NCBI RefSeq assembly: GCF_000231055.2
Contig: NZ_CM001466.1
Coordinates: 3,838,615 to 3,886,811 of the forward strand
Source of the DNA: Saccharomonospora azurea NA-128
GTDB lineage: Bacteria; Actinomycetota; Actinomycetes; Mycobacteriales; Pseudonocardiaceae
Length of the DNA stretch: 48,197 bases
Direction: 5' to 3'
Translations under genes and position numbers: made by a program
Part shown: in pieces, positions 12,758 through 39,893 of the stretch
How positions within the stretch are numbered: position 1 is the stretch's first letter
How the letters are laid out: each line of letters starts with the position of its first letter
Notes under the pieces: model-generated
Seen by the model: the letters and a program-made list of their open reading frames with translations, nothing else
The model's database searches: none
Told to the model about the DNA's origin: nothing

Positions 12758-12791
12758 CTGATTCATGGCCCCACGTGGCGAGGAGGTCCGT

Positions 12792-14087: not shown

Positions 14088-14089
14088 CC

Positions 14090-14173
14090 GTGTCCGCGAG
14101 TTGCGCACGCGTGTCCGCAGTTGTCGTACGCGTGTCCGCGAGTTGCGCACGCGTGTCCGCGTCTCCCGTACGC
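14090..14173 (+). repeat. 21-bp tandem repeat array 1 (four units, forward)
   Basis: Four adjoining 21-bp units at 14090, 14111, 14132 and 14153, plus a decayed fifth. The pattern is GTGTCCGC, five variable bases, then (G/C)CGTACGC with C/A changes (for example GCGCACGC). Units 1 and 3 are identical. The last unit is of the subtype ending CCCGTACGC. The array starts 3 bp after the ndh stop codon. The frames through it are open by chance (7-codon period), not genes. Confidence 0.9.
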
Positions 14174-14224
14174 GGGTTCGCTTTTTCGCGTCCTGAGCGG
14201 GTGCGGCGTGCTTGACTGATCACC

Positions 14225-14731
14225 ATGTCGATCAACCGGCCCGCCGTGCCCCTGCGCGGTGACGAGCGGGAGACCCTGCGCGCGTTCCTCGACTACCATC
14301 GCGCGACGCTGGCGTGGAAGTGCGAACGCTTGTCCGACGAGGAGCTACGCCGCCGGTCCATGCCGCCGTCGACGTTGTCGCTGCTGGGGCTCGTCCGGCA
14401 CCTGGCCGAGGTGGAACGCGCCTGGTTCCGGCGGGTGATCGACGGGGAGGACGTGCCGTTGGTGTGGTCGGCGGACGGCGACTACCAGGTGGCCTACGAC
14501 GCCCGCACGGCGACGCGAGCGGAGGCGTTCGCGGCGTGGGAGGCGGAGGTCGAGCACTCTCGGCGCATCGAGCGCGAGGCGGAGTCGCTCGACGTCACCG
14601 GGCACGACCCGCGTTCGGGTGAGCAGGTGTCGCTGCGGCTCGTGATGTTGCACCTGATCCACGAGTACGCGCGACACAACGGGCACGCGGACTTCCTCCG
14701 GGAGGGCGTCGACGGCACCGTCGGTGCCTGA
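14225..14731 (+). CDS. DinB/DUF664-family putative metal-dependent protein
   Basis: 168 residues, a four-helix-bundle DinB-like protein. The three expected metal-ligand histidines are visible: VRHLAEVERAWF (about residue 60) and HLIHEYARHNGHADFLRE near residues 141-158. Actinobacterial members of this superfamily include mycothiol-dependent transferases and maleylpyruvate isomerases, so a thiol-transfer or detoxification role is possible but unproven. The gene lies between two 21-bp repeat arrays in opposite orientation (14090-14173 and 14789-14872), an unusual setting not shared by its neighbours. No operon partner overlaps it. Confidence 0.8.
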   Translation: MSINRPAVPLRGDERETLRAFLDYHRATLAWKCERLSDEELRRRSMPPSTLSLLGLVRHLAEVERAWFRRVIDGEDVPLVWSADGDYQVAYDARTATRAEAFAAWEAEVEHSRRIEREAESLDVTGHDPRSGEQVSLRLVMLHLIHEYARHNGHADFLREGVDGTVGA

Positions 14732-14788
14732 CGCCGTCGTGTGGTCCGCACCGCATCGACAGGTTCCGACCACGAATGCAGCGATCCT

Positions 14789-14872
14789 GCGTACCGGAAG
14801 CGCGGACACGCGTACGCAGCTCGCGGACACGAGTGCGGGAAGCGCGGACTCGCGTACGCAGCTCGCGGACAC
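14789..14872 (-). repeat. 21-bp tandem repeat array 2 (four units, reverse)
   Basis: Four adjoining 21-bp units at 14789, 14810, 14831 and 14852, each ending in GCGGACAC or GCGGACTC. This is the reverse complement of the array-1 unit. The two subtypes alternate: CGGGAAG or CCGGAAG types at positions 1 and 3, and the GCGTACGCAGCTC type identical at 2 and 4. It ends 45 bp before the ATP-grasp gene. Confidence 0.9.
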
Positions 14873-14917
14873 GGCGTGGGCGTTTACTCCGGACGGTGCC
14901 AGGAAACCCCCGTCTGC

Positions 14918-16189
14918 GTGAAGAACATCTTTGTGTTGGCACTGGACGACGAGAACACCCGCACGCTTTACACGGTTCCCGGGGCGGAGAACTACCGGTT
15001 CCACTCGCTGCTCACCGTGGACGAGACCCAGGTCGGCGAGATCGACGTGGATGCGCTGTTCGACAAGGCAGTGTCCGAACTGGACGCTTTCGACGGGTCC
15101 GTCGACGCCATCGTGTCGTACTGGGACTTCCCTTCCTCGACGCTGCGGGCGATGCTCTGCGAGCGCTACGGGCTGCCCGGGCCGTCGGTGGAGTCGGTGG
15201 TGAAGTGCGAGCACAAGTACTGGTCCCGCCTCGAACAGCAGAAGTCGATCGACGAGTATCCCCACTTCGGCATCGTCGACCTCGACGAGCGCAGACCCCG
15301 TCCTCCCGAGGGCGTGCGCTATCCGATGTGGTTGAAGCCGGTCAAGTCGTACTCGTCGGAGCTCGCCTTCCTGGCGCGCGACGACGCCGAGTTCGACGAC
15401 GCCGTCGCCAGGATCCGCGAGGGGATCGGCCGCATCGGCAAGGCGTTCGACAGCGTCCTCGACCGGCTGGACCTCCCTTCGGAGATCCGCGAGGTGGGTG
15501 GGCAGGCGTGCCTGGCCGAGGAAGCGCTGTCGGGTGTGCAGTGCGCCACCGAGGGCTACGTCCACAACGGCGAGGTCGTCGTGTACGGCGTGCTCGACTC
15601 GATCGACTACCCGGGCCATTCGTCGTTCCTGCGCCACCAGTACCCGTCGCAGCTTCCCGCGGAGTCGCAGCGCCGACTGCGCGACGTCTCCCAGCGCGTG
15701 ATCAGCCAGATCGGCATGGACAACTCGACCTTCAGCATCGAGTTCTTCTGCGATCCGTCCTGCCACGACGTGGCCCTGCTGGAGATCAACCCGCGGCACT
15801 CGCAGTCGCACGCCGAGATGTTCGAGTGCGTCGACGGCATCGCGAACCACCACGCGATGGTGCAGCTCGGGCTCGGTCGTGACCCCGAACTGCCGTCGGG
15901 CGAGGGGCCGTACAACATCGCCGCGAAGTGGTATCACCGGCGTTTCGTCGACGGTGTGGTGTCGTCGGTGCCGAGCGCGGAGGACATCGAACGGGTCCGC
16001 GGCGAGCTGGGCGGTGTCGAAGTGGACATCGTGCCCAAGGCGGGTCAGCGGTTGTCGGATCTGTCGGGCCAGGACAGCTACAGCTACGAACTCGCCCACA
16101 TCTTCGTCGGTGCTCGCGACGAGACCGACCTGGTGCGGAAGTACGAGCGCTGCGTCGACGCGTTGCCGTTCGGTTTCGAGGACCACTGA
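14918..16189 (+). CDS. ATP-grasp ligase of unknown substrate
   Basis: 423 residues. ATP-grasp features include the nucleotide-binding lysine region KCEHKYWSRL (about 105), YPMWLKPVKSYSSELAF (about 140-155), LAEEALSGVQCATEGY (about 200) and the metal/phosphate site FSIEFFCDPS followed by LLEINPRHSQSH (about 275-298). The C-terminal extension (EVDIVPKAGQRLSDLSGQDS, then AHIFVGARDE) resembles the tail of amino-acid ligases of the carnosine synthase/BL00235 type. It probably couples a carboxylate to an amine through an acyl phosphate. GTG 14918 is chosen because upstream sequence is repeat array; only a weak AGGA precedes it. The CocE-type hydrolase follows after 26 bp, likely in the same operon. 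The substrate is unknown. Confidence 0.8.
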   Translation: MKNIFVLALDDENTRTLYTVPGAENYRFHSLLTVDETQVGEIDVDALFDKAVSELDAFDGSVDAIVSYWDFPSSTLRAMLCERYGLPGPSVESVVKCEHKYWSRLEQQKSIDEYPHFGIVDLDERRPRPPEGVRYPMWLKPVKSYSSELAFLARDDAEFDDAVARIREGIGRIGKAFDSVLDRLDLPSEIREVGGQACLAEEALSGVQCATEGYVHNGEVVVYGVLDSIDYPGHSSFLRHQYPSQLPAESQRRLRDVSQRVISQIGMDNSTFSIEFFCDPSCHDVALLEINPRHSQSHAEMFECVDGIANHHAMVQLGLGRDPELPSGEGPYNIAAKWYHRRFVDGVVSSVPSAEDIERVRGELGGVEVDIVPKAGQRLSDLSGQDSYSYELAHIFVGARDETDLVRKYERCVDALPFGFEDH

Positions 16190-16215
16190 CGAACTTCGAC
16201 TAGGAGGCTGCCGGC

Positions 16216-18240
16216 GTGCTGCGCGAGGTCGACTCGCTGCCCGAGGACATCGTCGTCGACGAACACGTGTGGATCACCGTCTCGGACGGGACGCGACTGG
16301 CCGCGAAGATCTGGCGGCCCGTGGTATCGGACCGCGAACCGGTGCCCGGGCTGCTGGAGTACATCCCGTACCGCAAGCGGGATCTCACGGCCATCCGCGA
16401 CTCGATCCACCACCCGTACCTGGCCGGACACGGTTACGCCTGCGTGCGCGTGGACATGCGGGGGACCGGGGAGTCCGAGGGCGTGCTCACCGACGAGTAC
16501 CTGGAACAGGAACAGCGGGACGCCGAGGACGTGCTGGACTGGCTCGCGCGGCAACCGTGGTGCACCGGTGAGCTGGGCATGTTCGGCATCTCGTGGGGCG
16601 CGTTCGCGGCGTTGCAGGTGGCCGCACGCAAGCCGCCGAACCTCAAGGCGATCGCCATCTCGTCGTTCACCGACGACCGCTACGCCGACGACTTCCACTA
16701 CATGGGCGGCTGCATGCTGTCGGACAACCTCGCCGAGTCCGGCACCATGTTCGCCTACAGCACGCTACCGCCCGACCCCGCGCTGGTGGGGGAGCGGTGG
16801 AAGGACATGTGGCGCGAGCGGGTCGACGCCGCGGGGCCGTGGGTCGACACGTGGTTGCACCACCAGCGCCGCGACGCCTACTGGACGCACGCGTCGGTCA
16901 ACGAGAACTACGCCGACGTGCGCTGTCCGGTGCTGGCGACCAGCGGGTGGGCCGACGGGTACTCGAACGCCGTGGCCCGGTTGCTCGCCCACGTCGACGT
17001 CCCGCGCAAGGGGTTGATCGGCCCGTGGTCGCACAAGTACCCGCACCTCGGGGAGCCGGGCCCCGCCATCGGTTACCTGCAGGAACTCGTGCGGTGGTGG
17101 GACCACTGGCTCAAGGGTGTGGACAACGGTGTGATGGACGGCCCGATGCTGGTGACGTGGATGCAGGACAGCGTCCCTCCGTCGACGTCCTACCACCGGC
17201 GGCCGGGCCGCTGGGTGGGCGAGCCGGAGTGGCCGTCACCGAACGTCCGGCCCGTCGCGCTGCCGCTCGCCCGGCACCGGCTGGCCGAGCCCGGCGAGAC
17301 GGTGCCCGGCGAAGACCTCACCGTGCAGTCACCGTTGTCGGTCGGCCAGTTCGCGGGGAAGTGGGCGTCGTACAACGCGCCGCCCGACCTGCCGTACGAC
17401 CAGCGTGAGGAGGACGGCGGCTCGCTCGTGTTCGAGACGGAGCCGTTGACCGAGGACGTGGAGGTGCTGGGCGCGCCGCGCGTGACGCTCGACATCGCCG
17501 CCGACCGGCCGGTGGCGATGGTGGCGGTGCGGCTCTCCGACGTGCTGCCCGACGGCCGGGCCACCCGGGTGACCTACGGTCTGCTCAACCTGACCCACCG
17601 GGACGGCCACGAGCACCCGCAGCCCGTCGTCCCCGGTGAACGGTGTCGCGTCGATGTGGATTTCAACGTCGTGGCCCAGCGGTTCGCGGCCGGGCACCGG
17701 ATCCGGTTGTCCGTGTCGTCGTCCTACTGGCCGCTGGCGTGGCCGCCGCCGGAACCCACGACGTTGTCCGTGCGGACCTCGTCCAGTGAACTGGTGCTGC
17801 CGGTGCGTGAGGTGGCCGGCGAGGAACCGGTGATCGAGTTCGGGCAGCCGGAGGGTGCGAAGCCGATCAGCACCACCCAGCTGCGGCCGAGCAGACACTC
17901 CTGGACGGTCTCCCGTGATCTCGTGCAGTACGAGTCGGCGCTCGACATCGTGAAGGACGCCGGGACCATCGCGTTCCCCGACCACGACGAGCTCGAAGTC
18001 AGCCGGTGCGCGCACGAGCGGTACAGCTGGGTGGCCGACGACTTCGAGACGGTGCGTGGCGTCACCGAGTGGACCATGGCCTTCGCCCGTGGTGACTGGG
18101 AGGCGACCACGGTCACGCGGCAGGAGCTCACGTGCACGCGCACGGAGTTCCACCTGCACGCCCGGCTCGACGCCTACGAGGGCACCAAACGGGTGATGTC
18201 CCGGAACTGGGAGAGCACCATCCCCCGCGACTGTGTCTGA
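16216..18240 (+). CDS. CocE/NonD-family hydrolase (X-Pro dipeptidyl-peptidase-like)
   Basis: A 674-residue serine hydrolase. The alpha/beta-hydrolase domain contains YIPYRKRD, DMRGTGESEG and the nucleophile elbow GISWG (Ser near 126). It then has SGWADGYSN (Asp near 247) and GPWSHKYPH (His near 273), a complete Ser-Asp-His triad in CocE order. The C-terminal jelly-roll domain has LVFETEPLTEDVEVLG and HRIRLSVSSSYWP. There is an extra tail of about 110 residues (after residue 560) beyond the usual 560-600 aa. There is no signal peptide, so it acts in the cytoplasm. AGGAGG near 16202 precedes GTG 16216. Family members cleave acyl or X-Pro bonds. Next to an ATP-grasp ligase it could release or recycle an amide product (inference). 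Confidence 0.88.
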   Translation: MLREVDSLPEDIVVDEHVWITVSDGTRLAAKIWRPVVSDREPVPGLLEYIPYRKRDLTAIRDSIHHPYLAGHGYACVRVDMRGTGESEGVLTDEYLEQEQRDAEDVLDWLARQPWCTGELGMFGISWGAFAALQVAARKPPNLKAIAISSFTDDRYADDFHYMGGCMLSDNLAESGTMFAYSTLPPDPALVGERWKDMWRERVDAAGPWVDTWLHHQRRDAYWTHASVNENYADVRCPVLATSGWADGYSNAVARLLAHVDVPRKGLIGPWSHKYPHLGEPGPAIGYLQELVRWWDHWLKGVDNGVMDGPMLVTWMQDSVPPSTSYHRRPGRWVGEPEWPSPNVRPVALPLARHRLAEPGETVPGEDLTVQSPLSVGQFAGKWASYNAPPDLPYDQREEDGGSLVFETEPLTEDVEVLGAPRVTLDIAADRPVAMVAVRLSDVLPDGRATRVTYGLLNLTHRDGHEHPQPVVPGERCRVDVDFNVVAQRFAAGHRIRLSVSSSYWPLAWPPPEPTTLSVRTSSSELVLPVREVAGEEPVIEFGQPEGAKPISTTQLRPSRHSWTVSRDLVQYESALDIVKDAGTIAFPDHDELEVSRCAHERYSWVADDFETVRGVTEWTMAFARGDWEATTVTRQELTCTRTEFHLHARLDAYEGTKRVMSRNWESTIPRDCV

Positions 18241-18251
18241 CGAGGTGCTCC

Positions 18252-18331
18252 GACATCGTGTCCGCGCCCTGCGTACGTGTGTTCGCGTCGCAGGGCGCGA
18301 ACACACGTACGGGAAGCGCGGACACGATGTC
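18252..18331. repeat. 80-bp near-perfect hairpin built from two 21-bp repeat units
   Basis: The left arm starts GACATCGTGTCCGCGC and the right arm ends GCGCGGACACGATGTC. Pairing runs 16 bp, then a 4-base mismatch, then 18 bp (17 Watson-Crick plus one G-T) to a loop of about 4 bases (18252 pairs with 18331). Each arm contains one 21-bp repeat unit (18258-18278 forward, 18305-18325 reverse). It fills the whole gap between two convergent genes and even covers two bases of the greA-like stop codon, so it can act as a bidirectional terminator. Confidence 0.9.
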
Positions 18332-18794
18332 AGTCGGGCAGGGTCAGCTTCACGATCTGGGCGGTGGCCTCGCCCCGGGGAGTGCGGTAGGTGACCGTGT
18401 CGCCTTCCGACCGGCCCACGAGCGCGTGGCCCAGCGGGCTGTCCGCCGTCAACGACGACGTGTCGTCGTCGTCCGCCTCGTCGGCGAAGCCGACCACCAC
18501 CATGTCCTCGGTGCTGCCGTCGTCGAAACGCAACGTGACCCGCGTACCGGAGGGCAGCCCGCGCTCCTGCTCGGCGGTCGGCCCCCCGTACAGCAGGTCG
18601 GTGACCTCGGCGATGCGCCGGTCGACCCGCGACACCACTTCGGCACGCTCCAGCAGGTCCGCCTGGTCGGCGCTGTCGCCGAGCGGATCCTCACCGAGCT
18701 TGGGTGCCAGGGCCTCTCGTTGCCTGCGCAGCGAGTCGAGCTCGCGTTCCAGACGCGCGCGGGTGGCCGGGCTCAAACCTGGGGTCGACGTCAT
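18330..18794 (-). CDS. greA: GreA/GreB-family transcription factor
   Basis: A 154-residue protein with an N-terminal coiled coil (RARLERELDSLRRQREALAP, then DQADLLERAEVVSRVDRRIAEV) and a C-terminal FKBP-like domain (DSPLGHALVGRSEGDTVTYR). Canonical GreA rescues backtracked RNA polymerase using acidic residues at the coiled-coil tip. The tip here reads EDPLGDSADQADLL, so acidic residues are present but the sequence differs from classic GreA. Mycobacterial divergent Gre homologues (Rv3788 type) can inhibit rather than rescue transcription. ATG 18794 was chosen over upstream options because MTSTPGL is the usual family N-terminus. It lies just downstream of tex on the same strand, 45 bp away, so two transcription accessory factors are grouped. 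Confidence 0.85.
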   Translation of the reverse strand: MTSTPGLSPATRARLERELDSLRRQREALAPKLGEDPLGDSADQADLLERAEVVSRVDRRIAEVTDLLYGGPTAEQERGLPSGTRVTLRFDDGSTEDMVVVGFADEADDDDTSSLTADSPLGHALVGRSEGDTVTYRTPRGEATAQIVKLTLPD

Positions 18795-18839
18795 GGACCC
18801 ATTGTCCGGCCAGGCCGCCCGGCTCGCCACGCGCCCTGA

Positions 18840-21215
18840 TCAGACCCGGTAACCCGCCTTCCGCAGTGCGTCGGCCATCGCACCGCCGCCGGACCGGCGG
18901 TCGCCCCGCTTGCGGTTCTGCTTGCCCTGACCGCCCTGGCCACCGCCCTGGCCGCCCTGCCGCTGCGTGTTCTTCGGATCCTGCGACTTCGCCGACCCCT
19001 GGCCCTTGCGGCCGCCTCGGCGCCCGTCCTGCCCCGCCGTGGGTTCGTCGTCGAGCCGCAGCGTGAGCGAGATGCGCTTGCGCGGCACGTCCACGTCGAG
19101 GACCTTGACCGTCACGACATCGCCCGATTTGACGACGTCGTGCGGGTCGGAGACGTACTGGTGCGACATGGCGGACACGTGCACGAGACCGTCCTGGTGG
19201 ACGCCGATGTCGACGAACGCGCCGAACGCCGCCACGTTGGTGACCACGCCCTCCAGGCGCATGCCGGGCTTGAGGTCGGCCAGCGTGTCGACGCCGTCGG
19301 CGAACGTCGCCGTCTTGAACTCCGGACGCGGGTCGCGGCCGGGCTTCTCCAGCTCGGCGAGGATGTCGGTGACCGTCGGCACGCCGAACTTCTCGTCGGC
19401 GAACGTCTCGGGCTTCAGCGAGCGCAGGGTGCGGGAGGCGCCGATGAGCTCCCGGATGCCGACGCCCGCGTGGTCGAGGATGCGCCGCACGACGGGGTAG
19501 GACTCGGGGTGCACGGCGGAGGCGTCGAGCGGGTCGTCGCCGTCGGGGATGCGGAGGAAGCCCGCGCACTGCTCGAACGCCTTCGGGCCGAGGCGAGCGA
19601 CGTCCTTGAGCGCCGTCCGGGTACGGAAGGGTCCGTTGGCGTCGCGGTGGGCGACGATGTTCTCCGCCAGCCCGGTGCCGATGCCGGACACGCGGGCCAG
19701 CAGGGGAGCGGACGCGGTGTTGAGGTCGACGCCCACCGCGTTCACGCAGTCCTCCACGACGGCGTCGAGCGAGCGCGACAGTTTCGTCTCGGCCACGTCG
19801 TGCTGGTACTGGCCGACGCCGATCGACTTCGGGTCGATCTTGACGAGTTCGGCCAGCGGGTCCTGGAGCCTGCGGGCGATGGACACGGCCCCGCGCAGCG
19901 ACACGTCGAGGTCGGGCAGCTCCTGCGACGCGTAGGCCGACGCCGAGTACACCGACGCGCCCGCCTCCGACACGACGACCTTGGTGATGCCGAGGTCGGG
20001 GTGCTTCTTGGCGAGGTCGCCGGCGAGCTTGTCGGTCTCGCGCGACGCGGTGCCGTTGCCGATGGCGACGAGTTCGACACCGTGCGCGCGGACGAGACGT
20101 TCCAGCGTGGCCAGTGCGTCGTCCCACCGGGACTGCGGTTTGTGCGGGTAGATCGTGTCGGTGGCGACGACCTTGCCGGTGCCGTCCACGACCGCCACCT
20201 TCACACCGGTGCGGTAGCCGGGGTCGAGCCCCATGGTCGGGCGGGTTCCGGCGGGCGCGGCGAGCAGCAGGTCGCGCAGGTTGGCCGCGAAGATGCGCAC
20301 GGCCTCGTCCTCGGCGGCCTGCCGCAGGCGCATGCGCAGGTCGATGCCGAGGTGCAGCAGGATCTTCGTGCGCCACGCCCAGCGCACCGTGTCGCGCAGC
20401 CAGCGGTCGGCGGGCCGGCCCGCGTCGGAGATGCCGTGGCGTTCGGCGATGCGGGTCTCGTAGTGGTCGGCCTCGGCGCCCGGTTCGACGGGCTCGGTGG
20501 TGAGGTCGAGGATTTCCTCCTTCTCACCGCGGAAGAGCGCCAGGATGCGGTGCGACGGCAGCTTCGCGAGCGGTTCGGCGAAGTCGAAGTAGTCGGCGAA
20601 CTTGGCGCCGTCGGTCTCCTTGCCTTCGCGGACCTTCGAGGTCAGCCAGCCTCGGGTCCACATGGTCTCGCGGAGTTCGCCGATGAGGTCGGCGTCCTCG
20701 GCGAAGCGTTCCACGAGGATGGCGCGTGCCCCCGCGAGCGCGGCGGCGGCGTCGGCGACACCCGCGTCGGCGTTGACGAACGCCTCGGCCGCGGTGGTCG
20801 GGTCCTGCGTGGGGTCGGACAGCAGGCCGTCCGCCAGCGGTTCGAGGCCGGCCTCCCTCGCGATCTGGGCCTTGGTGCGGCGCTTGGGCTTGTAGGGGAG
20901 GTAGATGTCCTCGAGACGGGCCTTCTCCTCGGCGGCCATGATCCGGGCTTCGAGCTCTTCGGTGAGCTTGCCCTGGGAGCGGATGGATTCGAGGATCACC
21001 GTGCGCCGGTCTTCGAGCTCCCGCAGGTAGCGCAGGCGTTCCTCGAGGGTGCGCAGCTGGGTGTCGTCGAGGCCGCCCGTCACCTCCTTGCGGTAACGCG
21101 CGATGAACGGCACCGTCGAGCCGTCGTCCAGCAGGGCCACGGCGGAGTGGACCTGCTCGGAGCGGACACCGAGTTCGCCGGCGATCTTGTCATGAAGGGA
21201 CGTCCTGTCAGCCAC
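18840..21215 (-). CDS. tex: Tex-family S1 RNA-binding transcription accessory protein
   Basis: 791 residues, close to full-length Tex. Domains in order are an N-terminal helical region with [17 protein letters not shown], a YqgF/RuvX-like fold ([20 protein letters not shown] near 325), a helix-hairpin-helix segment ([20 protein letters not shown] near 510) and the S1 RNA-binding domain (about 648-717, [20 protein letters not shown]). A disordered tail rich in Gly, Gln, Lys and Arg follows, ending [12 protein letters not shown], longer and more basic than in E. coli-type Tex. It binds nucleic acid and influences transcription elongation. GTG 21215 lacks a clear SD, and CACAAT lies 8 bases upstream, so the mRNA may be leaderless. 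It is divergent from ilvD with only 44 bp between starts. Confidence 0.93.
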
Positions 21216-21224
21216 GACACCGAA

Positions 21225-21253
21225 TTGTGCCTGCTGCGCTCGGCGCTCATGAT
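21225..21253 (+). promoter_or_regulatory. Probable leaderless promoter of ilvD
   Basis: TTGTGC (21225-21230), a 17-base spacer and CATGAT (21248-21253) end six bases before the ilvD ATG at 21260, where no Shine-Dalgarno is present. The distance is right for transcription starting at or next to the start codon. Confidence 0.45.
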
Positions 21254-21259
21254 GGCCCC

Positions 21260-22948
21260 ATGACCGAAACCGGCACTGTCGGCCCGGTCGACCCGAGGCC
21301 GCGCAGCCGCGACGTCACCGACGGCGTCGAACGCACGGCCGCGCGAGCGATGTTGCGCGCCGTGGGCATGGGCGACGCCGACTTCGCGAAGCCGCAGGTG
21401 GGCATCGCCTCGTCGTGGAACGAGATCACCCCGTGCAATCTGTCACTGCGCAGGCTCGCGGACGCCGGCAAGCAGGGCGTGCACGCGGGTGGTGGCTACC
21501 CGCTGGAGTTCGGCACGGTGTCGGTGTCGGACGGCATCAGCATGGGACACCGGGGCATGCACTTCTCGCTCGTGTCGCGGGAGGTCATCGCCGACTCGGT
21601 GGAGACGGTGCTGGAGGCCGAGCGCCTCGACGGAGCCGTGCTGCTGGCCGGGTGCGACAAGAGCCTGCCGGGGATGCTGATGGCCGCGGCGCGCATCGAC
21701 GTGGCGGCCGTGTTCGTGTACGCGGGGTCCACGCTGCCCGGTCGGCTCGACGGCCGTGAGGTCACCATCATCGACGCCTTCGAGGCGGTCGGTGCGTGTG
21801 CGCGCGGATTGATCGGCTCGGACGAGGTCGACCGGGTCGAGCGCGCCGTGTGTCCCGGCGAGGGCGCGTGCGGGGGCATGTACACGGCCAACACGATGGC
21901 GTGCGCCGCCGAGGCGCTGGGCATGTCGTTGCCCGGGTCGGCGAGCCCGCCGTCCGTCGACCGCAGGCGCGACGGCTACGCGCGCGCCAGCGGTGAGGCG
22001 GTCGTCGAGATGCTGCGCCGCGGGATCAGCGCGCGCGACATCCTCACCCGGGAGGCGTTCGAGAACGCCGTCGCGGTGGTGATGGCGCTGGGCGGCTCGA
22101 CCAACGCGGTGCTGCATCTGCTCGCCATCGCGCACGAGGCCGGGGTGCCGCTGACGCTGGACGACTTCTCGCGCGTCGGCGACCGTGTGCCGCACCTGGC
22201 CGACGTCAAGCCGTTCGGCAAGTACGTGATGACCGCCGTGGACCGGGTCGGCGGTGTTCCCGTGGTGATGCGGGCGCTGCTCGACGCGGGCCTGCTGCAC
22301 GGCGACTGCCTGACGGTCACCGGGCGGACGGTGGCGGAGAACCTCGACGAGGCCGGGCCGGGCGAACTCGACGGCACGGTGCTGCGCACGCTGTCGAACC
22401 CGATCCACGCCTCGGGCGGCATCACGATCCTGCACGGCAGCCTCGCGCCGGAGGGCGCGGTGGTGAAGAGCGCGGGTTTCGACCGGTCCCGGTTCGAGGG
22501 CCGGGCGCGGGTGTTCGACGGCGAGCAGGCGGCGATGGCCGCGCTGCCGGAACTGGTGGCGGGCGACGTCGTGGTGATCCGTTACGAGGGGCCGCGCGGC
22601 GGGCCGGGGATGCGCGAGATGCTGGCCGTCACCGGGGCCATCAAGGGCGCCGGGCTGGGCCGGGACGTGCTGTTACTGACCGACGGCCGGTTCTCGGGCG
22701 GCACCACCGGGTTGTGCATCGGCCACGTGGCGCCGGAGGCCGCGCACGGCGGTCCGATCGCGTTCGTGCGCGACGGGGACCGCATCGTCGTCGACCTGGA
22801 GAACCGGACGCTCGACCTGCTCGTCGACGACGCCGAGCTCGCGCGGCGGCGCGAGGGGTGGCGGGCGCCGGAGGTCGAGCACCGGGGCGTGCTGGGCAAG
22901 TACGCGCGGCTCGTGGGCTCGGCGTCCGTGGGAGCTGTGTGCTCGTAA
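21260..22948 (+). CDS. ilvD: Dihydroxy-acid dehydratase
   Basis: 562 residues. Converts 2,3-dihydroxy-3-methylbutanoate/pentanoate to the 2-keto acids in valine and isoleucine synthesis. The iron-sulfur cysteines are visible in [10 protein letters not shown] (near 60), [13 protein letters not shown] (near 130) and [20 protein letters not shown] (near 200). Family motifs [37 protein letters not shown] and [20 protein letters not shown] follow. Length and order match the short (ILVD) group. ATG 21260 is the family start ([20 protein letters not shown] close behind); no SD precedes it. It stands alone here, away from other ilv genes, and its 3' end is 7 bp from the convergent acetyltransferase gene. 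Confidence 0.95.
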
Positions 22949-22954
22949 CGGCGT

Positions 22955-23803
22955 TCAGCCGCCGAGTTTCTCCTCGATCCACCTGACCCCGAAGTCGACC
23001 ACGTCGGCGGCCTCGAACAGGTGGCTGCGGGCGGCACCGACCTGCCCCGTGCGCCCGAAGCCCGCCGCCAGCAACTCCTCGCCGATCACGCCGAACGCGT
23101 CCTCGTCCGCGCCCACGACGGGCGAGTAGTCGAAGGCGCCGTTCTCCGAGTCGATGTCGGAGAACCGCCGCCACATCCGCTCGCCGTCCACGTCGATGGG
23201 CATCTCGTAGGAGACGAAGATCTTGTTCGGGGCGTCGGCGAGGGCCTCCGCGTGGTGCAGCAGGGTGAGCGTGTCGAGCGGAGCCCCGAGCATGAGCACC
23301 CGACCGCCGACCTCCGCCAGCCGGGCGAGCGGACTGTCCGGGCCGTGTGGGCCGTCCCACGGATGGTCGGACATCAGCTCCTCCGCGCGCAGGCCCACGG
23401 CGGCGAAGCTCGCGTCGGGATGCCTGCTGCGCACGGCACCGGGCCAGCGGCGCAGGGCCTCAGGTAACCGACCGTTCGCGTGGTCGGCTTCGCTGAGATC
23501 GGGGTGGAAGGCGGGATGCTCCGCCCGGATCCGCTCCTGCCACTGCCGGGGCCACGTGAGGAATTCGTACGGTGGTGCGTCGTTCCAGCCACACGTGACC
23601 ATCAACGTCCCTCGTGGACCGACCACGTCCAGCAGCGCGTGGATGACCGTGGTGGGCCCGCCCGCGACGTAGCCGATGGCCGACAGCCGGGTGTGGAACA
23701 TGACCGTGTCGCCGCTCCGCAGACCGAGCGCGTCGAGGTCGCGCGCGAGTCGGCTGCGCGTCACGGGACCGTTCGAGCGCCCTAGCAGGGCGGAGGTGTC
23801 CAT
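22955..23803 (-). CDS. AAC(3)-family aminoglycoside N3-acetyltransferase-like protein
   Basis: A 282-residue antibiotic acetyltransferase fold. It begins TRSRLARDLDALGLRSGDTV, then VMFHTRLSAIGYVAGGPTTV and VGPRGTLMVTC in the acetyl-CoA region, HPWDGPHGPDSPLARLAEVG with the GxDSP-type loop, and MLGAPLDTLTLLHHAEALAD carrying the expected catalytic-region histidine. Family enzymes move an acetyl group from acetyl-CoA to the 3-amino group of deoxystreptamine aminoglycosides. Chromosomal actinomycete members are often intrinsic, and many act poorly on clinical drugs. ATG 23803 is chosen from homologous N-terminal length; the open frame upstream crosses a promoter region. It is flanked by unrelated housekeeping genes, with no mobile-element traces. 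Confidence 0.88.
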   Translation of the reverse strand: MDTSALLGRSNGPVTRSRLARDLDALGLRSGDTVMFHTRLSAIGYVAGGPTTVIHALLDVVGPRGTLMVTCGWNDAPPYEFLTWPRQWQERIRAEHPAFHPDLSEADHANGRLPEALRRWPGAVRSRHPDASFAAVGLRAEELMSDHPWDGPHGPDSPLARLAEVGGRVLMLGAPLDTLTLLHHAEALADAPNKIFVSYEMPIDVDGERMWRRFSDIDSENGAFDYSPVVGADEDAFGVIGEELLAAGFGRTGQVGAARSHLFEAADVVDFGVRWIEEKLGG

Positions 23804-23941
23804 GTCGCGAAGTGTAGGTCGAGAGACCCGACCGGATGATTCCGAAATCTCGGTTCCGGACACGCCCTCGGGCAGCCCGATTCTGTCGGCCCCCACTGAT
23901 ACTCAATGAGCACCACAGCACCACACGCGGGGAGGCGACAC

Positions 23942-24328
23942 ATGGTGAAGGCACTTGTGGCCACGGCGGCGACCCAGGGGTTCCGCGACAGCGACTACCA
24001 CTGGTGCGTCGAGGGCGAACTGGTGTGGATCGCACCGACGTGTGCGAAGGACCGCGACGACCCCGACGGCGGGTGTGGTTGCGGTCGGGGGTTCGCCGGG
24101 CTGTCGTCGCACCGCGCCACCACCACGGCGATGGTGCGGACCCTGCACGGCATCAGCCGTGAGGACTACATCATGGTGCTGCGGTCCAGTGTGGAGGAAC
24201 AGGGTTACGACATCGCCGACGTGGCGGCTCTGGCCGACTCGCTGCTCGACCTGGTCGCCGACCTACCGGACGGCGCGGTGCTGGAACACCGGCTCAACTA
24301 CGTGCAGGTGAGGCAGGGGGTTCCGTGA
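23942..24328 (+). CDS. Conserved-type protein with a GCGCG cysteine motif, function unknown
   Basis: 128 residues, with ATG 23942 preceded by GGGGAGG about 7 bases upstream. The central stretch holds four cysteines: CVEGELVWIAPTC, then DPDGGCGCGRGFAGLSSHRA. The pattern C-x12-C-x10-C-G-C-G could bind zinc or another metal. The remainder is helical (MVRTLHGISREDYIMVLRSS). There is no signal or membrane segment. It looks like a widespread actinobacterial single-domain family, but I cannot name a function. Its last 35 bp overlap the end of the convergent PPOX gene, so antisense interference between the two messages is possible. Confidence 0.75.
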   Translation: MVKALVATAATQGFRDSDYHWCVEGELVWIAPTCAKDRDDPDGGCGCGRGFAGLSSHRATTTAMVRTLHGISREDYIMVLRSSVEEQGYDIADVAALADSLLDLVADLPDGAVLEHRLNYVQVRQGVP

Positions 24329-24893
24329 CCCCCGGCCCCGGTGGGGCGGGGAGCGCGGGCAGTCCGTCGATGCTGTGGGAGTTCCGCCGACGCTGGTAGT
24401 CGAGCAGGTTCTCCGGCGTTCTGCGACCGTTGTGCCGCGTGAGCAGGTCGCGGTCGTGCTGGTAGGCCATGACCGGCACGGAGAAGCCGCACGAGTCACT
24501 GACCCGCTCCACCGTGACGTCGATGATGGCCCGCAGAGCAGGACCGGGTTCGGTGTCGAACCGCGCGAGCAGGTCGGCGAAGCCGGGGGAGTCGGGGAAC
24601 ACGGCTTCACCGCGCCCGTGCAGCCGCACGATGTTCGGCGGGCCCTCGAACGCGCAGAACATGATCACGATGCGTCCGTTCTCCCGCAGGTGCGCGATCG
24701 TTTCGACCCCGCTGGCCGTGTAGTCGAGATAGGCCACCCGGTGGTCGTCGAGGACGGCGAAGCTGCCCATGAGCCCCTTCGGGGACACGTTGACGTGTCC
24801 GTCCACGGACGTCGGGGCCGTGCCGACGAAGAACACCGGCTGCGCCAGCAGGAAGTCACGCAAGCGGTCGTCGATCCGATCGTGCAGTTTCAC
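24294..24893 (-). CDS. Pyridoxamine 5'-phosphate oxidase-fold flavin/F420-type protein
   Basis: 199 residues of the PPOX split-barrel family. Motifs are FLLAQPVFFVGTAPTSVDGH, VNVSPKGLMGSFAVLDDHRV, YLDYTASGVETIAHLRENGR and IVIMFCAFEGPPNIVRLHGR. The VSPKG and ENGRIVIMFCAFEGPP pattern is that of the subgroup annotated as pyridoxamine 5'-phosphate oxidase-like in many actinomycetes, which bind FMN, heme or F420 and usually do not make PLP. GTG 24893 is chosen because GGGAGG lies 6-8 bases upstream, while the far longer open frame is a shadow of cobB. The substrate is unknown. It is divergent from cobB. Confidence 0.85.
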   Translation of the reverse strand: MKLHDRIDDRLRDFLLAQPVFFVGTAPTSVDGHVNVSPKGLMGSFAVLDDHRVAYLDYTASGVETIAHLRENGRIVIMFCAFEGPPNIVRLHGRGEAVFPDSPGFADLLARFDTEPGPALRAIIDVTVERVSDSCGFSVPVMAYQHDRDLLTRHNGRRTPENLLDYQRRRNSHSIDGLPALPAPPGPGVTEPPASPARS

Positions 24894-25013
24894 GCGGGAC
24901 CTCCCGGGCGAGTCGGCGCTCGTCACACGGCAACCTACCCGAGTTCGATCATTCCCGGCATGCGTCGCCCTGGGCCGTGGTGAGCTACGGTCGGCCGCGA
25001 GGAGGTGCCCGGC

Positions 25014-26369: not shown

Positions 26370-26378
26370 TTCAGCATC

Positions 26379-26549
26379 GTGTCCGCAGTCTGCGTACGTG
26401 TGTTGGTACGTCGCGTACGCGGGGGTGGGGCTCGGCATCGTGTCCGCGGCCTGCGTGCGTGTGTTGGCGTCGCACGGCGCGGACACGCGTGCATGAGGCG
26501 CGGACACGGGTACGGGAAGTGCGGACACGCGTGCGGGAGGCGCGGACAC
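26379..26549. repeat. Composite 21-bp repeat array 4 (three forward, three reverse units)
   Basis: Forward units are at 26379, 26400 (degenerate) and 26440. A 26-bp junction at 26461-26486 starts GTGTTGG and ends GCGGACAC, then reverse units lie at 26487, 26508 and 26529. Forward units 1 and 3 are both preceded by GCATC, and the last reverse unit is followed by GATG, the same outer boundary as in the 18252-18331 hairpin. The array fills the gap between the convergent cobB and arabinosyltransferase genes. Confidence 0.88.
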
Positions 26550-26562
26550 GATGTTGGGTGGG

Positions 26563-29500
26563 TCACGGGGTGGGGCCCGGGCCCGGGGTCCACCAGCCCG
26601 GGCGGATGTTCCGCTCGCGGTGGATGGTCGGGGGAGCGCCCGCTTCGTACGGCTCGACCGTGTACAGCGCACCCCACGGCTGGTCGGGCTCACCCGCCAG
26701 GTAGCTCGGCACCTCGGGTTTGGCCGCGACCTCGTCGAGGTTGCCGAGCACACCGCCCGCGGCGGCGCTCGCCCAGCCCGCCTCGTCGGCCAGGGAACCG
26801 GCCGTGAGGTGGTAACCGGGGACCTCCAGGACGCCGTCCCGCACCGTCGTCGGGGTCAGGCACGGATAGACGAACGACGCGGGCCAGTCGACGTAGACGG
26901 GGGTGTCGCCGACCGCCTCGGTGAGGGTCGTGAACGTCGGCGCGCGCGGGGCGGTCGCGGCGACCCAGCCGTCGGCGGTGAGGTCGTCGTCGGTGACGAC
27001 GAGTCGCACCGCGTCGGCCGTGGGCGGAATGTCCGAGGGCGACAGTCTCGCGTCCTCCCACTCTCCGGTGCCCGCCCCGGGAGCGAGCGCGGGGAGGCTG
27101 GCGAGCGCCCGCACGCCGTCGGGGGTCTGCCGGCCGAACTCGACGTCCACGCTGGTGGCGGTGCCGGACGGCGCGGCGACCGCGACGACGACGCGGGGGG
27201 CGGTGCCGTGCTCGTGTGGCTCGGGTGGCAGCCGGTGCCACGGCGTGTCGAGGCGACCGGTGGTCGGGGTCTTGGGGTCGTGGCTGCTCCACATCGGCGT
27301 GGTGGCGGCGTCGAACCCGTGCGGCGGCCCGTCGAGCGGGTCCGTGGCGGAGGTCGGGCTGGTGTGGAAACCGCTGCCGCCGTCGGCACTGCCCGCGCTG
27401 CCGGGGATCGGTGCGAGCACGTCGTCCGCGGGGTCGCGTTCGACCATGACGTGGTCGCCGAGCCCGCAGTGGCTGCTGGTGAGGTGGGCGAGGTTGCTGG
27501 TGCCGAGGCTGTAGGTGCCGCGCTGTTCGACCATGGCCTTGACCATGCTGCCGACGGTGGACAGCACCACGAGCCCGCACACGACGACGATCGCCACCGA
27601 GCCCCGCCACAGCGCGACCCGGTGGCGTTCCGGTGGTTCCGGCGGCCCGGGCCGGTGCGCGCGGACGTTCTCGACGAACGCCACCACGCCCGCGACGACG
27701 GCGGCGAGTGTCAGCAGCGTCGACAGCGCGACTCCGCCGATCTCCGGGGGCCTGTCGAACCACGGAACGCCGACCTGCGACACGAACCAGTACGCGTTGG
27801 GCGCGGTCACCGAGACGGCCGCGACGAGCAGCAGACCCGCGACGAAGGCGGCGTGGTTGCGTCGTGACCGGAGCACGGACGCGCTGGTGGCGAGCGCGGT
27901 CAGGGCGGCCATGGCGGCGCCCACGGCGGCGAACGCGCCGAAGTGGTGGGTCCACTTGGTCGGTGTCAGCGCCAGCAGGACGAAGAACAGCGCCACGGTG
28001 CCGATGAGGCGCCGGCTCGGCCCCAGGGCCGCGCCGGGTATGCGGTTGCGCCGCAGCAGCACGGCGAGGCACGCCGCCGTGCACAGGACGAGCAGCAGCA
28101 CGGGGAACCGCCGCGTCAGTGCCCCGTCGGGGGCTTGGCTGAACAGCAGTTCGTAGCGGGCCGGCTCCTCGAACCACGACATGCTGGGGCCGACGGCGTC
28201 GCGCAGGCGGATGGCCTCGGCCACGCTCGCGGCGGTCTGGTCGGCGAACACCGCGAACAGCACGAGGCAGCCGGAGGCGAGCACGGGGGTGAGTGCCGCG
28301 GCCCAGCCGTTCCGGGCGTGGTCGCGCAGCAGGCGGAAGAGGGGACGGGCCGCCACCAGGAACGGCGCGACGGCGATCAGGCCGGTGGGGGTGGCGGCGA
28401 ACGTGAACGCGGCCGCGCCGACACCGAGGCACACGGGCAGCAGGCGACGTGTGGCGAGTGCGCGCTCCACTGCCCACAGGGCCACCGACGACCCCAGCAC
28501 GGCCACCGGTTCGGGGCGCACGCCGTTGTCGTAGGGCAGCCACCACACGCAGAAGACGGTCGCGGCGGCCCACCCGGCCGCGCGACTGCGGCGGACGGCC
28601 GCTCCGAGCCGGGGCAGCACCCGGCGGCTGAGCACCAGCCAGCCGGTCACCCCGAGCAGGAACGACGGCAGGCGGATCCACGGCGGCGTCGCGCTGACGT
28701 CCGCGAGCAGCGCGTACACGTGGTGGAACCAGCCGAACGGCGCCTCGGCCACGCCGAACCAGCGGTGGTGGTTGGTGAGGTAGCCGGCGTCGTCGGCGAC
28801 CCGGGCCATGGTGAGGATGTAGCCGTCGTCCGAGGTGACGGGTCCGATGAAGACCCACGCGGCGAGCACACCCACCACGGCGGCGTCTCGACCCGTGGGC
28901 CGCAGGCGGCAGCGGAACGGTCCGGGTGGTGCGCGACGGCCCACGACGTCGTCTCGCCGGGCGACGGCGACGAGGCAGCCGAGCGCGGCGCCGACGCCGA
29001 GGGCGGCCACGGCGAGTTTCGCCGCGGTGGGGGAGGACTGGTAGCGCGTGTCGGGCGTGATCGACACGGCGAGGTCGGCGACGGGGTCGCGGGTGCCGTC
29101 GAGGTCGGAGTAGATACCCACGATGCGGGGTCGGACGTCGCCGTCGGCGTGGTGGATCGGGGCGCCGCCGACCGTCAGGGTGGTGCTCGCGGGCGTGGAA
29201 CGCACGCTCACGGCGCAGTCCGGCGCGGACAACGCGGCGCGGGCGACCTGTTCACCCCGGAGGACGGCGACGAGCTCGCCGTCCTGCACGGTCAGCCGCA
29301 GTCCGACACCGCTGTCGTCGCGGGCCGGGGGAACCGTGGCCAGCAACAACGCCGGTCCGGACGTCCGGGCGTCGAGGGAGCGCACCGCCGCGCAGGGCAG
29401 CTCGGCGGAGGTGTCCAACGCCCAGTACGACGCCAGTGGCGCGTTGACCGCCGTGGTGTCGCCGCCCACCGGCCAGCTGATGCGGGCGGATTCCTGCACC

Positions 29501-29652: not shown

Positions 29653-29713
29653 CAAGGCTCACGCTAACGGCAGACGACGCGCCCGCCCGGCCACTGCGTC
29701 ACTCACTCGTGGC

Positions 29714-32162: not shown

Positions 32163-32188
32163 GGTCGGTCATTCTTGCCCACAAGGGG

Positions 32189-32214
32189 GCCTTCGCGCGA
32201 AGCCTCACGTGAGG
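32189..32214. terminator. Possible weak terminator or hairpins between gltD and cobU
   Basis: Two adjoining dyads lie across the gltD 3' end: CTTCGCGCGAAG (32191-32202) and CCTCACGTGAGG (32203-32214), the second overlapping the gltD stop codon. They could attenuate read-through into cobU; no U-tract follows, so read-through is also possible. Confidence 0.35.
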
Positions 32215-38181: not shown

Positions 38182-38231
38182 AGTTGGCGGCCCTCCTCTT
38201 GTCCGGCACCACCGGGCACGAGAAGCCACCG

Positions 38232-38250
38232 GTGCCACGTGACGTGGCAC
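38232..38250. promoter_or_regulatory. Perfect 19-bp palindrome upstream of gltB
   Basis: GTGCCACGT, G, ACGTGGCAC: nine bases on each side of a single central base. It lies 50-70 bp upstream of the gltB start codon, where an operator for a nitrogen or carbon regulator would sit. I do not recognise it as a GlnR box, which has a different pattern. Confidence 0.5.
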
Positions 38251-38618
38251 ACGGCCAGCTAACGGTTCGGCCCGACGTTGCGATGAATCAGGTCAGGGAA
38301 GTCGATGTCGCCACTCGGTGCTTCGTCGCGGAGGGCGGGGACACATCGACACATCGGTGACCACACGGCGCTGTGCGGCGGGCAGAGCATTGCGCGGTTC
38401 GAGGATCCGCCCACGAAGCCGTCGGCAGATCCGGCGCACGAATGGTTCTCCGGGATCGCCGGTCTTATGACAGTAATGTGAACTGCCGGTACGCCAAATA
38501 CTTCCGCTGTGTTAAGTGGACAACAGCACACAGGCATTGACGATCGTGGTCTTCGTGTGCTTTCTCGCGCGTGTGACGCTCTGACCTGCGGTGACGTCGG
38601 AGGCGGTAGGGTCCGTGC
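38251..38618. other. Divergent intergenic region between gltB and the acyl-CoA dehydrogenase gene
   Basis: This 368-bp stretch contains no convincing gene; open frames in it are short with ordinary composition. A possible plus-strand -35 TTGACG lies at 38537-38542 with only a poor -10 17 bases later. The part around 38460-38550 is distinctly AT-richer than its surroundings, consistent with promoter DNA. Confidence 0.5.
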
Positions 38619-39797
38619 ATGACCGGTTCGGATCCTGGTGACTTCCTCGGCGTCGACGCCGAACTGACGGTGGACGAACGCGACATCCGTGATGCGGTGC
38701 GGCAGTTCGCGGAGGTGGAACTGACTCCGCACGTGGCGGAATGGTACGAGAATGCGACACTTCCGGCGCGAGATCTGGCGAAGGCTTTCGGCAGATTGGG
38801 CGTGCTCGGAATGCATCTTTCCGGCTACGGCTGTGCCGGGTCGTCGGCCGTCGCATACGGCATCGCGTGCCGGGAACTCGAGGCCGTCGATTCGGGACTA
38901 CGCAGCTTCGTGTCGGTGCAGGGGTCGCTCGCCATGTACGCCATTCACCGCTACGGCAGCGAGGAGCAGAAGCAGCGGTGGTTGCCGCCGCTCGCGTCCG
39001 GCGAGGCGATCGGGTGCTTCGGGCTCACCGAACCCGACGCGGGAAGCGACCCGGCGTCCATGCGCACGCGGGCCCGCCGCGACGGCACCGACTGGGTGCT
39101 CGACGGCACCAAGATGTGGATCACCAACGGCACGGTGGCCGACGTCGCCGTGGTGTGGGCGCAGACCGACGAGGGGGTCCGCGGCTTCGTCGTGCCCACC
39201 GACGCGCCCGGATTCTCGGCCCACGAGATCACGCGCAAGCTCTCGTTGCGGGCGTCGTTGACGGCGGAGCTCGTGTTCGACGGCGTCCGGTTGCCGTCGG
39301 ACGCCGTCCTGCCCGGCGTGACGGGGTTGCGGGGTCCGCTGTCGTGCTTGAACGAGGCGCGGTTCGGCATCGTGTTCGGAGCGGTGGGCGCCGCGCGCAC
39401 GTGTTACGAGACGGCGTTGGAGTACACCACCACGCGCACCCAGTTCGGGGCGCCGCTGGCGGCGTACCAGCTGACGCAGCGCAAGCTGGCCGATCTCGTC
39501 GTGGAGGTGAACCGCGCCGGGCTCGTGGCGTTGCGGCTCGGACGCCTCAAGGACGCCGGTGAGCTTCACCACAGCCAGGTGAGCTTCGGCAAACTGGCGA
39601 ACGTGCGCGCCGCGCTGGACGTCGCCCGCACGGCGCGGTCGATGCTGGGCGCCAACGGCATCTCGCTGGAGTACCCGGTGATGCGCCACGCGGCGAACCT
39701 GGAGACCGTGCTCACCTACGAGGGCACGGAGGAAATGCACGCCCTGTCGGTGGGCCAAGCGGTGACGGGAATCCCGGCCTTCAGGGTGAACACCTGA
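38619..39797 (+). CDS. gcdH: Glutaryl-CoA dehydrogenase-type acyl-CoA dehydrogenase
   Basis: 392 residues. FAD enzyme that oxidises and decarboxylates glutaryl-CoA to crotonyl-CoA in lysine and tryptophan breakdown. The match to the GCDH subgroup rather than generic acyl-CoA dehydrogenases is clear: LEAVDSGLRSFVSVQGSLAM with the arginine that binds the glutaryl carboxylate, IGCFGLTEPDAGSDPASMRT, TKMWITNG, SLRASLTAELVFDGVRLPSD, LNEARFGIVFGAVGAARTCY and the catalytic glutamate in NLETVLTYEGTEEMHALSVG. It stands alone, without a downstream enzyme of the pathway. A 21-bp repeat array begins 12 bp after its stop. Confidence 0.88.
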   Translation: MTGSDPGDFLGVDAELTVDERDIRDAVRQFAEVELTPHVAEWYENATLPARDLAKAFGRLGVLGMHLSGYGCAGSSAVAYGIACRELEAVDSGLRSFVSVQGSLAMYAIHRYGSEEQKQRWLPPLASGEAIGCFGLTEPDAGSDPASMRTRARRDGTDWVLDGTKMWITNGTVADVAVVWAQTDEGVRGFVVPTDAPGFSAHEITRKLSLRASLTAELVFDGVRLPSDAVLPGVTGLRGPLSCLNEARFGIVFGAVGAARTCYETALEYTTTRTQFGAPLAAYQLTQRKLADLVVEVNRAGLVALRLGRLKDAGELHHSQVSFGKLANVRAALDVARTARSMLGANGISLEYPVMRHAANLETVLTYEGTEEMHALSVGQAVTGIPAFRVNT

Positions 39798-39809
39798 CCG
39801 ATGAACACC

Positions 39810-39893
39810 GTGTCCGCAGCCTGCGCACACGTGTCCGCACCTCGCGTACGCGTGTCCGTAGGCTGCGCGCGGGTGTTGGCACTTCCCGTACGG
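39810..39893 (+). repeat. 21-bp tandem repeat array 5 (four units, forward)
   Basis: Units at 39810, 39831, 39852 and 39873, each starting GTGTCCG or GTGTTGG. The last unit is the CCCGTACG subtype, as in array 1. The array lies between the convergent gcdH and lipoprotein genes and ends 2 bp before the lipoprotein stop codon. Confidence 0.9.

Follow-up and report, generated by a model that had tools for sequence, protein, structure and literature searches.

Arrays of a 21-bp unit behind stop codons in Saccharomonospora: placement, spacing and possible roles at transcript ends

Five arrays in the window and the unit that builds them

The stretch of DNA analysed here, called the window, comprises 48,197 nucleotides of Saccharomonospora azurea NA-128 (NZ_CM001466.1, positions 3,838,615 to 3,886,811). 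It carries five arrays of a 21-bp unit, located exactly where an earlier note on this DNA had put them. The first is a direct array of four units (14090-14173, plus strand), sense to the upstream Pyr_redox_2 family gene, whose stop codon ends at 14087. The second, a direct array of four reverse units (14789-14872, minus strand), lies between two plus-strand genes; it stands 57 bp past the stop of the upstream gene and is antisense to it, making it the exception to the orientation rule described below. The third is a 68-bp mirrored core without assigned strand (18258-18325), which consists of a forward unit (18258-18278), an apex (18279-18304) and a reverse unit (18305-18325) and is flanked by convergent genes of the Peptidase_S15 and GreA/GreB families. 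A longer mirrored array, likewise without assigned strand (26379-26549), has forward units starting at 26379, 26400 and 26440, an apex at 26461-26486 and reverse units starting at 26487, 26508 and 26529; its convergent neighbours belong to the GATase_3/CbiA and arabinosyltransferase families. The fifth is a direct array of four forward units, the third of them degenerate (39810-39893, plus strand), between convergent acyl-CoA dehydrogenase and DUF3558 genes, the latter at 39896-40474 on the minus strand. As the earlier note had claimed, three loci (18258, 26379 and 39810) lie between convergent genes and four follow plus-strand stops closely, 3, 18, 10 and 13 bases after stops ending at 14087, 18240, 26369 and 39797.

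Matches to the unit pattern with up to two mismatches number 16 in the window, whereas 100 shuffles yield 0.49 on average and never more than 5; 15 of the 16 fall within the five arrays. A profile search beyond the window, which the earlier note had proposed, found copies genome-wide. The genome, a single contig of 4,763,852 bases, contains 386 unit matches compared with 9 for a reversed control, and a matrix trained on the units detected 147 units at score 13 in a first 1.25-Mb sample compared with 3 on the reversed sequence. The invariant part of the unit is GTGTCCGC in this genome and roughly G[AT]GTYY more widely, and the most variable positions are 9-15, 17 and 21. The unit is pseudo-dyadic, being 58% complementary about its own centre at the best offset.

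We designate the genome under study G000; G001, G004 and G009 are three sister Saccharomonospora species used in the block comparison below, G003 and G005 are further genomes of the same genus, G031 is a genome of another genus (g21), and L numbers denote sequence stretches. Beyond GTGTCCGC, the periodic units of G004, G008 and G002 lean to TAGCC or TCGCC, not TACGC. The recognition half is thus constant and the other half species-variable in these genomes, as would be expected if a putative binding factor also changes.

The exact unit phase described in the earlier note does not hold throughout: at 26379 it breaks, the forward units at 26379, 26400 and 26440 including a 40-base jump. A split of the units into two subtypes by orientation is borne out at both mixed loci of the window. 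With the 18 mirrored 68-bp cores of G000 oriented by their apex, the left arm is of the CTG/TTG type in 15 of 18 and the right arm of the TTCC/CTCC/TTCT type in 11 of 18. Because 10 of the 18 cores are in reverse, the subtype rule tracks the directional apex and not the genome strand.

Placement, first-unit orientation and conservation

We mapped arrays in 1.38 Mb of G000, made up of the window, evenly spaced pieces and the block around the window. Genes were called by a home-made finder with manually set codon priors, which misses some genes (the one at 39896-40474, for example), and an array was counted when at least one unit scored 20 or more on the unit matrix. This yielded 42 arrays with 181 units: 17 arrays in convergent, 21 in tandem and 3 in divergent gaps, and 1 at the edge of a stretch. 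None of the 42 lies in a called gene, and 38 of the 41 placeable arrays are downstream of at least one gene. Gaps longer than 20 bp hold 28 kb of convergent, 92 kb of tandem and 78 kb of divergent intergenic sequence; divergent gaps thus account for 39% of this sequence yet contain 3 of the 41 placeable arrays. In tandem pairs the median distance from the array is 9 bp to the upstream stop (0 to 57) and 73 bp to the next start (12 to 182). A lower threshold (score 14, in a smaller sample) gave 42 clusters, 8 of them single matches within genes. The three divergent arrays are L045 16177-16239, L068 16767-16865 and L082 7879-7967. That of L068 lies only 8 bp from a called gene start, and from about 17000 to 19600 L068 has masked runs (N, read as X) within long reading frames.

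We compared a syntenic block of 240-255 kb across G000, G001, G004 and G009, here with a definition looser than the matrix: at least two recognition halves no more than 300 nt downstream of a gene end. Arrays occupy 1/39, 0/38, 1/33 and 0/40 divergent gaps in these species, in that order, and 6/26, 5/22, 4/29 and 7/25 convergent gaps. Together, the 1.38-Mb sample and the four-species block strongly support the placement at gene 3' ends proposed in the earlier note; random placement was not seen, the copies being non-random relative to genes.

Array position is conserved between species. Gene ends with arrays in the block number 21/206 in G000, 15/215 in G001, 14/209 in G004 and 22/218 in G009. 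Orthologous ends carrying an array in both species, in G000 only, in the other species only or in neither number 10, 7, 3 and 147 for G001; 9, 7, 4 and 135 for G004; and 16, 3, 5 and 162 for G009. The coincidence with G000 is highly significant (Fisher p 1.4e-9, 6.1e-8 and 3.6e-16, respectively), as is that among the other three species (1.3e-6, 3.9e-9 and 2.0e-7). In keeping with this, arrays directly follow the stop of the gene upstream of the 14090 locus in G001, G003, G004, G008, G009 and G010 as well, and the 39810 array also stands behind the same gene in G001, G003 and G009. Unit number and orientation pattern vary between species at one locus; G009 and G010, for instance, carry a differently arranged array at the 14789 locus.

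Across the block, 59 of 72 ends have a first unit oriented like the upstream gene, a count in which orthologous ends are not independent. By species this amounts to 20/21 in G000, 13/15 in G001 and 12/14 in G004, and a wider G000 sample gave 40 sense against 13 antisense first units. The first unit lies no more than 20 nt from the stop at 60 of the 72 ends, and two of these 60 are estimated to overlap the stop. We considered the array as the source of the stop codon and rejected this idea, as most of the ortholog C-termini shown are alike with and without arrays.

We surveyed the family Pseudonocardiaceae with a covariance model built on an alignment of 40 cores, from which two false 68-bp cores of L068 were excluded. 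The 18258 core matches this RNA model with an E value of 2.3e-16, being itself among the 40 sequences used to build it. Matches occur in 22 of 297 family genomes, in 10 of 46 genera and in 8 of the 12 genomes of the own genus. With 17 candidates scored per genome, the per-genome counts are lower bounds: at least 8 in twelve genomes and at least 1 to 3 in ten. A degenerate two-unit tandem pattern, which gives presence by pattern only, is found in 32 of 160 genomes and 14 of 46 genera, and its reversed control gave one match among the matches listed. Unit spelling is genus-specific (GAGTCCCCCGCTCCGGCGCGC in g15 and GTGTCCCCCGTTCCCGACGTC in g4, for example). An apparent abundance in G075 was discarded, as it consisted of scattered single matches with no array among the matches listed.

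We also surveyed named loci, using the 76 of 80 that were at least 10 kb long. The 16 loci that, by their genus names, presumably belong to Pseudonocardiaceae have 155 intergenic regions of 63 bp or longer; a repeat with a period of 21 or 22 occurs in 8 of these, all convergent or tandem gaps, and in 3 of 598 regions in loci of other families. The identity threshold of this survey misses diverged arrays, and therefore three Saccharomonospora loci yielded none. By eye, in 6 of the 7 differently spelled arrays inspected out of the 8, a G[AT]GT or GACT end faces the stop codon within about 20 nt: two in Prauserella cavernicola, two in Amycolatopsis palatopharyngis, one in A. arida and one in A. 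taiwanensis. The 22-bp array of A. taiwanensis runs antisense. In a convergent gap of P. cavernicola (L097 5077-5359) there are many C-rich units in 21-bp phase with much sequence divergence.

We asked whether the arrays might be a selfish or passively spreading repeat without a job, tolerated behind stops and homogenised within species as units are copied from one locus to another. Points in favour are the spelling peculiar to each genus, the patchy presence, and the shifts of copy number and orientation at a fixed locus. Another is the array at L074 18394-18711, where 12 scored units span 318 bp and eight are identical reverse units, which suggests a very recent tandem expansion. In G004, units of different loci are more alike (0.488) than units of the same locus compared with G000 (0.377, 6 loci), G001 (0.462, 5) and G009 (0.401, 4). 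This uniformity is, however, particular to G004: among G000, G001 and G009 the values are 0.504, 0.536 and 0.569 for the same locus against 0.533, 0.532 and 0.514 for different loci of one species. Furthermore, array position is conserved between species, there is no transposase link, a sense first unit is not expected from random spread, and spacings of 20 and 22 bp should have arisen by neutral drift. Viral contigs searched with a 29-base pattern, and plasmids and phages searched with a 96-base query, gave no match, and phage or plasmid carriage was rejected. We consider a selfish repeat quite unlikely; were the arrays selfish, their precision of spacing and target would be unusual and would itself need a mechanism.

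Spacing, folding and possible modes of action

Spacing was measured from the recognition half alone, leaving the intervening length free to vary, in the Saccharomonospora stretches and in loci of G031; the G031 stretches were picked for holding units and also enter the core alignment and the covariation counts. Neighbouring anchors on the same strand are 21 bp apart 286 times and 20 or 22 bp apart not once. The 14 other neighbours between 12 and 30 bp show no single distance more than three times. Across unit positions 9-21, neighbours at 21 bp differ at 1561 of 3718 positions (42%), and so many substitutions without a change of length point to selection on spacing. Likewise, GTGT and the facing half across a mirror point are most often 18, 39 or 60 apart (28, 11 and 5 times), in steps of 21; a distance of 37 occurs four times, and there is a tail of others. 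The obvious reading of 21 bp is two turns of B-DNA. The earlier note had placed all units on one face of the helix, which this rigidity supports; the 22-bp array of A. taiwanensis fits less well.

Both orientations are present in 24 of the 42 arrays, mostly as runs and not in strict alternation. The distance from forward to reverse start is usually 47 bp (10 of 14), enclosing a 26-nt apex that resembles GTGTYCGCGTCGCACGGCGCGAACAC. Copies of the 68-bp core also exist in g21, and some of them (L243 and L244, for example) are near-perfect palindromes. In a second mirror class the reverse units come before the forward ones; it has a different palindromic apex close to GCCGGTGTGGGGTGAACCCCACCGGC and is found at L043 10931-11061, L053 18775-18905, L057 289-471, L063 10163-10292, L068 11208-11343 and L084 12166-12295. 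This second apex resembles a plain terminator hairpin.

The earlier note had also suggested a structured 3' RNA tail. Mirrored arrays do fold much more stably than their shuffles (median z -6.1 as the mean of both strands, 24 of 24 below -2). Direct-only arrays mostly show no excess folding (median z -0.84, 3 of 17 below -2), and the one single-unit array stays above -2. The hairpins are real in the mirrored form and are not the common denominator of the arrays. Between mirror partners, unit positions 16-21 match at 0.871 compared with 0.811 in shuffles, and pairs of the core changed on both sides number 12 compared with 9.9, a value reached in 86 of 500 shuffles. Arm-by-arm pairing of the variable middle (9-15) was tried and rejected: the arms are less alike (0.443) than shuffled ones (0.512), and selection for a hairpin over the whole unit is therefore unsupported.

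A classical terminator of hairpin and U-tract was rejected as well, as T-tracts are not enriched after arrays (3 of 55 ends, 5.5%, compared with 3.9% of random intergenic 25-mers). The 14090 array is one of the three. Its last unit and the following CTTTTTC (14155-14187) resemble a classical terminator, one of five such matches in 12700-27000 where 3.1 are expected. By eye, this T run has no equal in G001, G003, G008 and G009 and a short one in G010.

The folding and the tight placement behind stop codons raise the question of whether the arrays act in RNA, in the manner of the repetitive extragenic palindromic (REP) elements of Escherichia coli, either by loading Rho on an open C-rich stretch or through hairpins acting as a barrier to exonucleases or a brake on the last ribosome. 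The sense first unit and the strong folding of mirrored arrays fit such action. In the 84 nt after the stop, C and G on the sense strand are 0.387 and 0.323 at 53 array ends compared with 0.346 and 0.343 at 505 others (p 1.7e-4), a modest excess of C, and an open frame of 745 amino acids contains the RNA-binding domain of Rho. According to an excerpt of PMC12306157, E. coli REPs less than 16 nt from a stop reduce translation, and a passage of PMC8269248 counts 353 uridine-poor against 182 U-rich hairpin 3' ends in Streptomyces clavuligerus. On the other hand, direct arrays fold no better than shuffles, and the sense strand is the better folder in just 12 of 21 tandem pairs. In the first 60 nt past stops an array adds hardly any structure (at convergent ends of G000, median z -0.86 with an array and -0.64 without). 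Inspection by eye shows no such excess of C in the array at 3677 of A. palatopharyngis or in the convergent one of A. taiwanensis, and the missing T-tract enrichment is a further point against RNA action. RNA action moreover offers no plain reason for an exact 21-nt spacing in unstructured arrays. We regard it as possible but unlikely.

Positive supercoils gather at 3' and convergent positions, and the bacterial interspersed mosaic elements (BIMEs) of E. coli have been proposed to relieve them together with gyrase. A role in recruiting a topoisomerase or nucleoid protein to relieve positive supercoils ahead of transcription would suit the 3' and convergent placement of the arrays and their helical phasing. 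To our knowledge, gyrase is near-universal, whereas the arrays are patchy; the factor is hypothetical, and a bias to a sense first unit is not predicted. We think this explanation very improbable.

We tentatively favour, at somewhat less than an even chance, the view that the arrays serve as direction-aware boundaries of transcription units, most likely as protein sites lined up along a single face of the DNA. Sites of 21 bp with a fixed recognition half stand in a row close behind the stop, mostly starting in the direction of the upstream gene. A sequence-specific protein would bind them side by side on one DNA face and, once bound, might halt RNA polymerase or insulate the neighbouring gene. 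Mirrored arrays would act from both sides, and their very stable hairpins could protect the transcript end. The sequence, the spacing, the placement, the first-unit orientation, the conserved place and the folding of mirrored arrays are established. From them we infer that a protein exists, that it binds DNA and not RNA, and that it affects transcription. DNA binding is preferred because of the spacing rule together with the unstructured direct arrays. What the arrays of different genera share is a half-site resembling G[AT]GTYY, repeated with a period of 21-22 bp, together with a start near the stop and a first unit set by the upstream gene; this combination fits protein-read sites tied to transcription end.

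Several observations weigh against boundary elements read by a DNA-binding protein. The bias of the first unit is weaker in G009 (sense in 14 of 22), and all units of tandem-pair arrays are split nearly evenly, 50 sense to 40 antisense; because of this split, the orientation bias belongs to the first unit alone. The frames that flank the three divergent arrays look real, so the 3'-end rule is strong and not absolute. In an even 400-kb sample of G009 at low threshold, ten clusters include 2 in genes and 1 lying over 1.6 kb away from the nearest called gene, with about seven intergenic clusters near gene ends (3 convergent, 3 tandem and 1 divergent). Copying of units by itself also passes on a constant period, and two turns of 10.5 bp do not give the 22 bp seen in A. 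taiwanensis. The pseudo-dyad of the unit shows no covariation (0.579 compared with 0.588 expected from column make-up). The 40 cores do covary (0.171 compared with 0.144 in shuffles, reached by 0 of 500), and a pure DNA-site model needs no covariation.

How transcripts end in GC-rich actinobacteria is unsettled; part of one Streptomyces study gives hairpin and U ends as a minority of structured 3' ends (PMC8269248). With their fixed spacing, oriented first unit and conserved place, the arrays are a directly testable candidate for transcript ends, and they may perhaps prove useful as bidirectional insulators in antibiotic-producing genera.

Comparison with known systems

Rfam 15 has no match at gathering score within the window, and literature searches of limited coverage found no description of these repeats. 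A match to an already described repeat class, to which the earlier note had given weight, was thus found neither in Rfam for the window nor in the literature searched. An array of clustered regularly interspaced short palindromic repeats (CRISPR) was rejected, as the units abut head to tail at a spacing equal to the unit length and without unique spacers. A coding heptapeptide repeat (21 bp being 7 codons) was also rejected, because the arrays follow stops, run in both orientations and exist in a 22-bp form.

REPs and BIMEs are the nearest known kind. They too are short, high-copy and extragenic, stand at gene 3' ends, some no more than 15 nt from the stop (446 of 4,072 E. coli REPs, in an excerpt of PMC12306157), and form groups with both orientations. 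At 21 bp, with 386 matches and 0 of 42 arrays in genes, the present units match the size and copy number of such elements (20-40 bp, extragenic). In contrast to REPs, they run head to tail at exactly 21 bp and their first unit is mostly sense. Neither a GTAG nor a CGTC tag is in the unit matrix, and the units are not tagged stem-loops. A REP-associated tyrosine transposase (RAYT) beside units was not found: G000 has one PF01797 gene, with no unit scoring more than 7 on the matrix within 1.5 kb, and mobilisation by a Y1/RAYT transposase was rejected on this single gene without flanking units. This sole Y1 (IS200-type) transposase (G000:C1:336339-336692) is short, with an open frame of 136 amino acids. 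The missing link is not decisive, because CGTC REPs likewise lack a dedicated transposase, as a section of PMC3733652 states. We do not file the arrays as REPs, since they show no tag, no stem-loop per unit and no link to RAYT. The main text of PMC3733652 mentions Actinobacteria, Saccharomonospora, Saccharopolyspora and Amycolatopsis 0 times, and the part of the RepRanger table in PMC12306157 at hand lists three other Actinomycetota.

Strong hairpin ends without a U-tract just past stops are described for GC-rich bacteria in portions of PMC8355165 and PMC8269248. These U-less (I-shaped) or clustered-hairpin terminators resemble the mirrored arrays in their strong hairpins behind stops. They differ in that the sequence here is fixed and periodic and that 14 of 17 direct-only arrays lack strong excess folding; such terminators could cover the mirrored arrays and not the direct ones.

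Rho utilization (rut) sites are C-rich, G-poor and open in the RNA and lie just after the last codon. The arrays share the position directly after the last codon and a moderately C-rich sense strand, but they have a rigid 21-bp period and a fixed recognition half, and their C-richness was not seen in all genera.

The Sal-box and Reb1 terminators of eukaryotic RNA polymerase I are tandem, oriented protein sites behind genes that stop the polymerase and are tied to ribosomal DNA. The arrays resemble them as tandem oriented sites behind genes, here putative protein sites. They differ in that the Sal-box and Reb1 sites are eukaryotic and confined to the ribosomal DNA setting. It is conceivable, if doubtful, that Pseudonocardiaceae possess a dedicated end mark, helically phased and direction-aware rows of protein sites that would be a bacterial counterpart of these road-blocks, with a factor whose specificity changes by genus and rewrites many sites in step.

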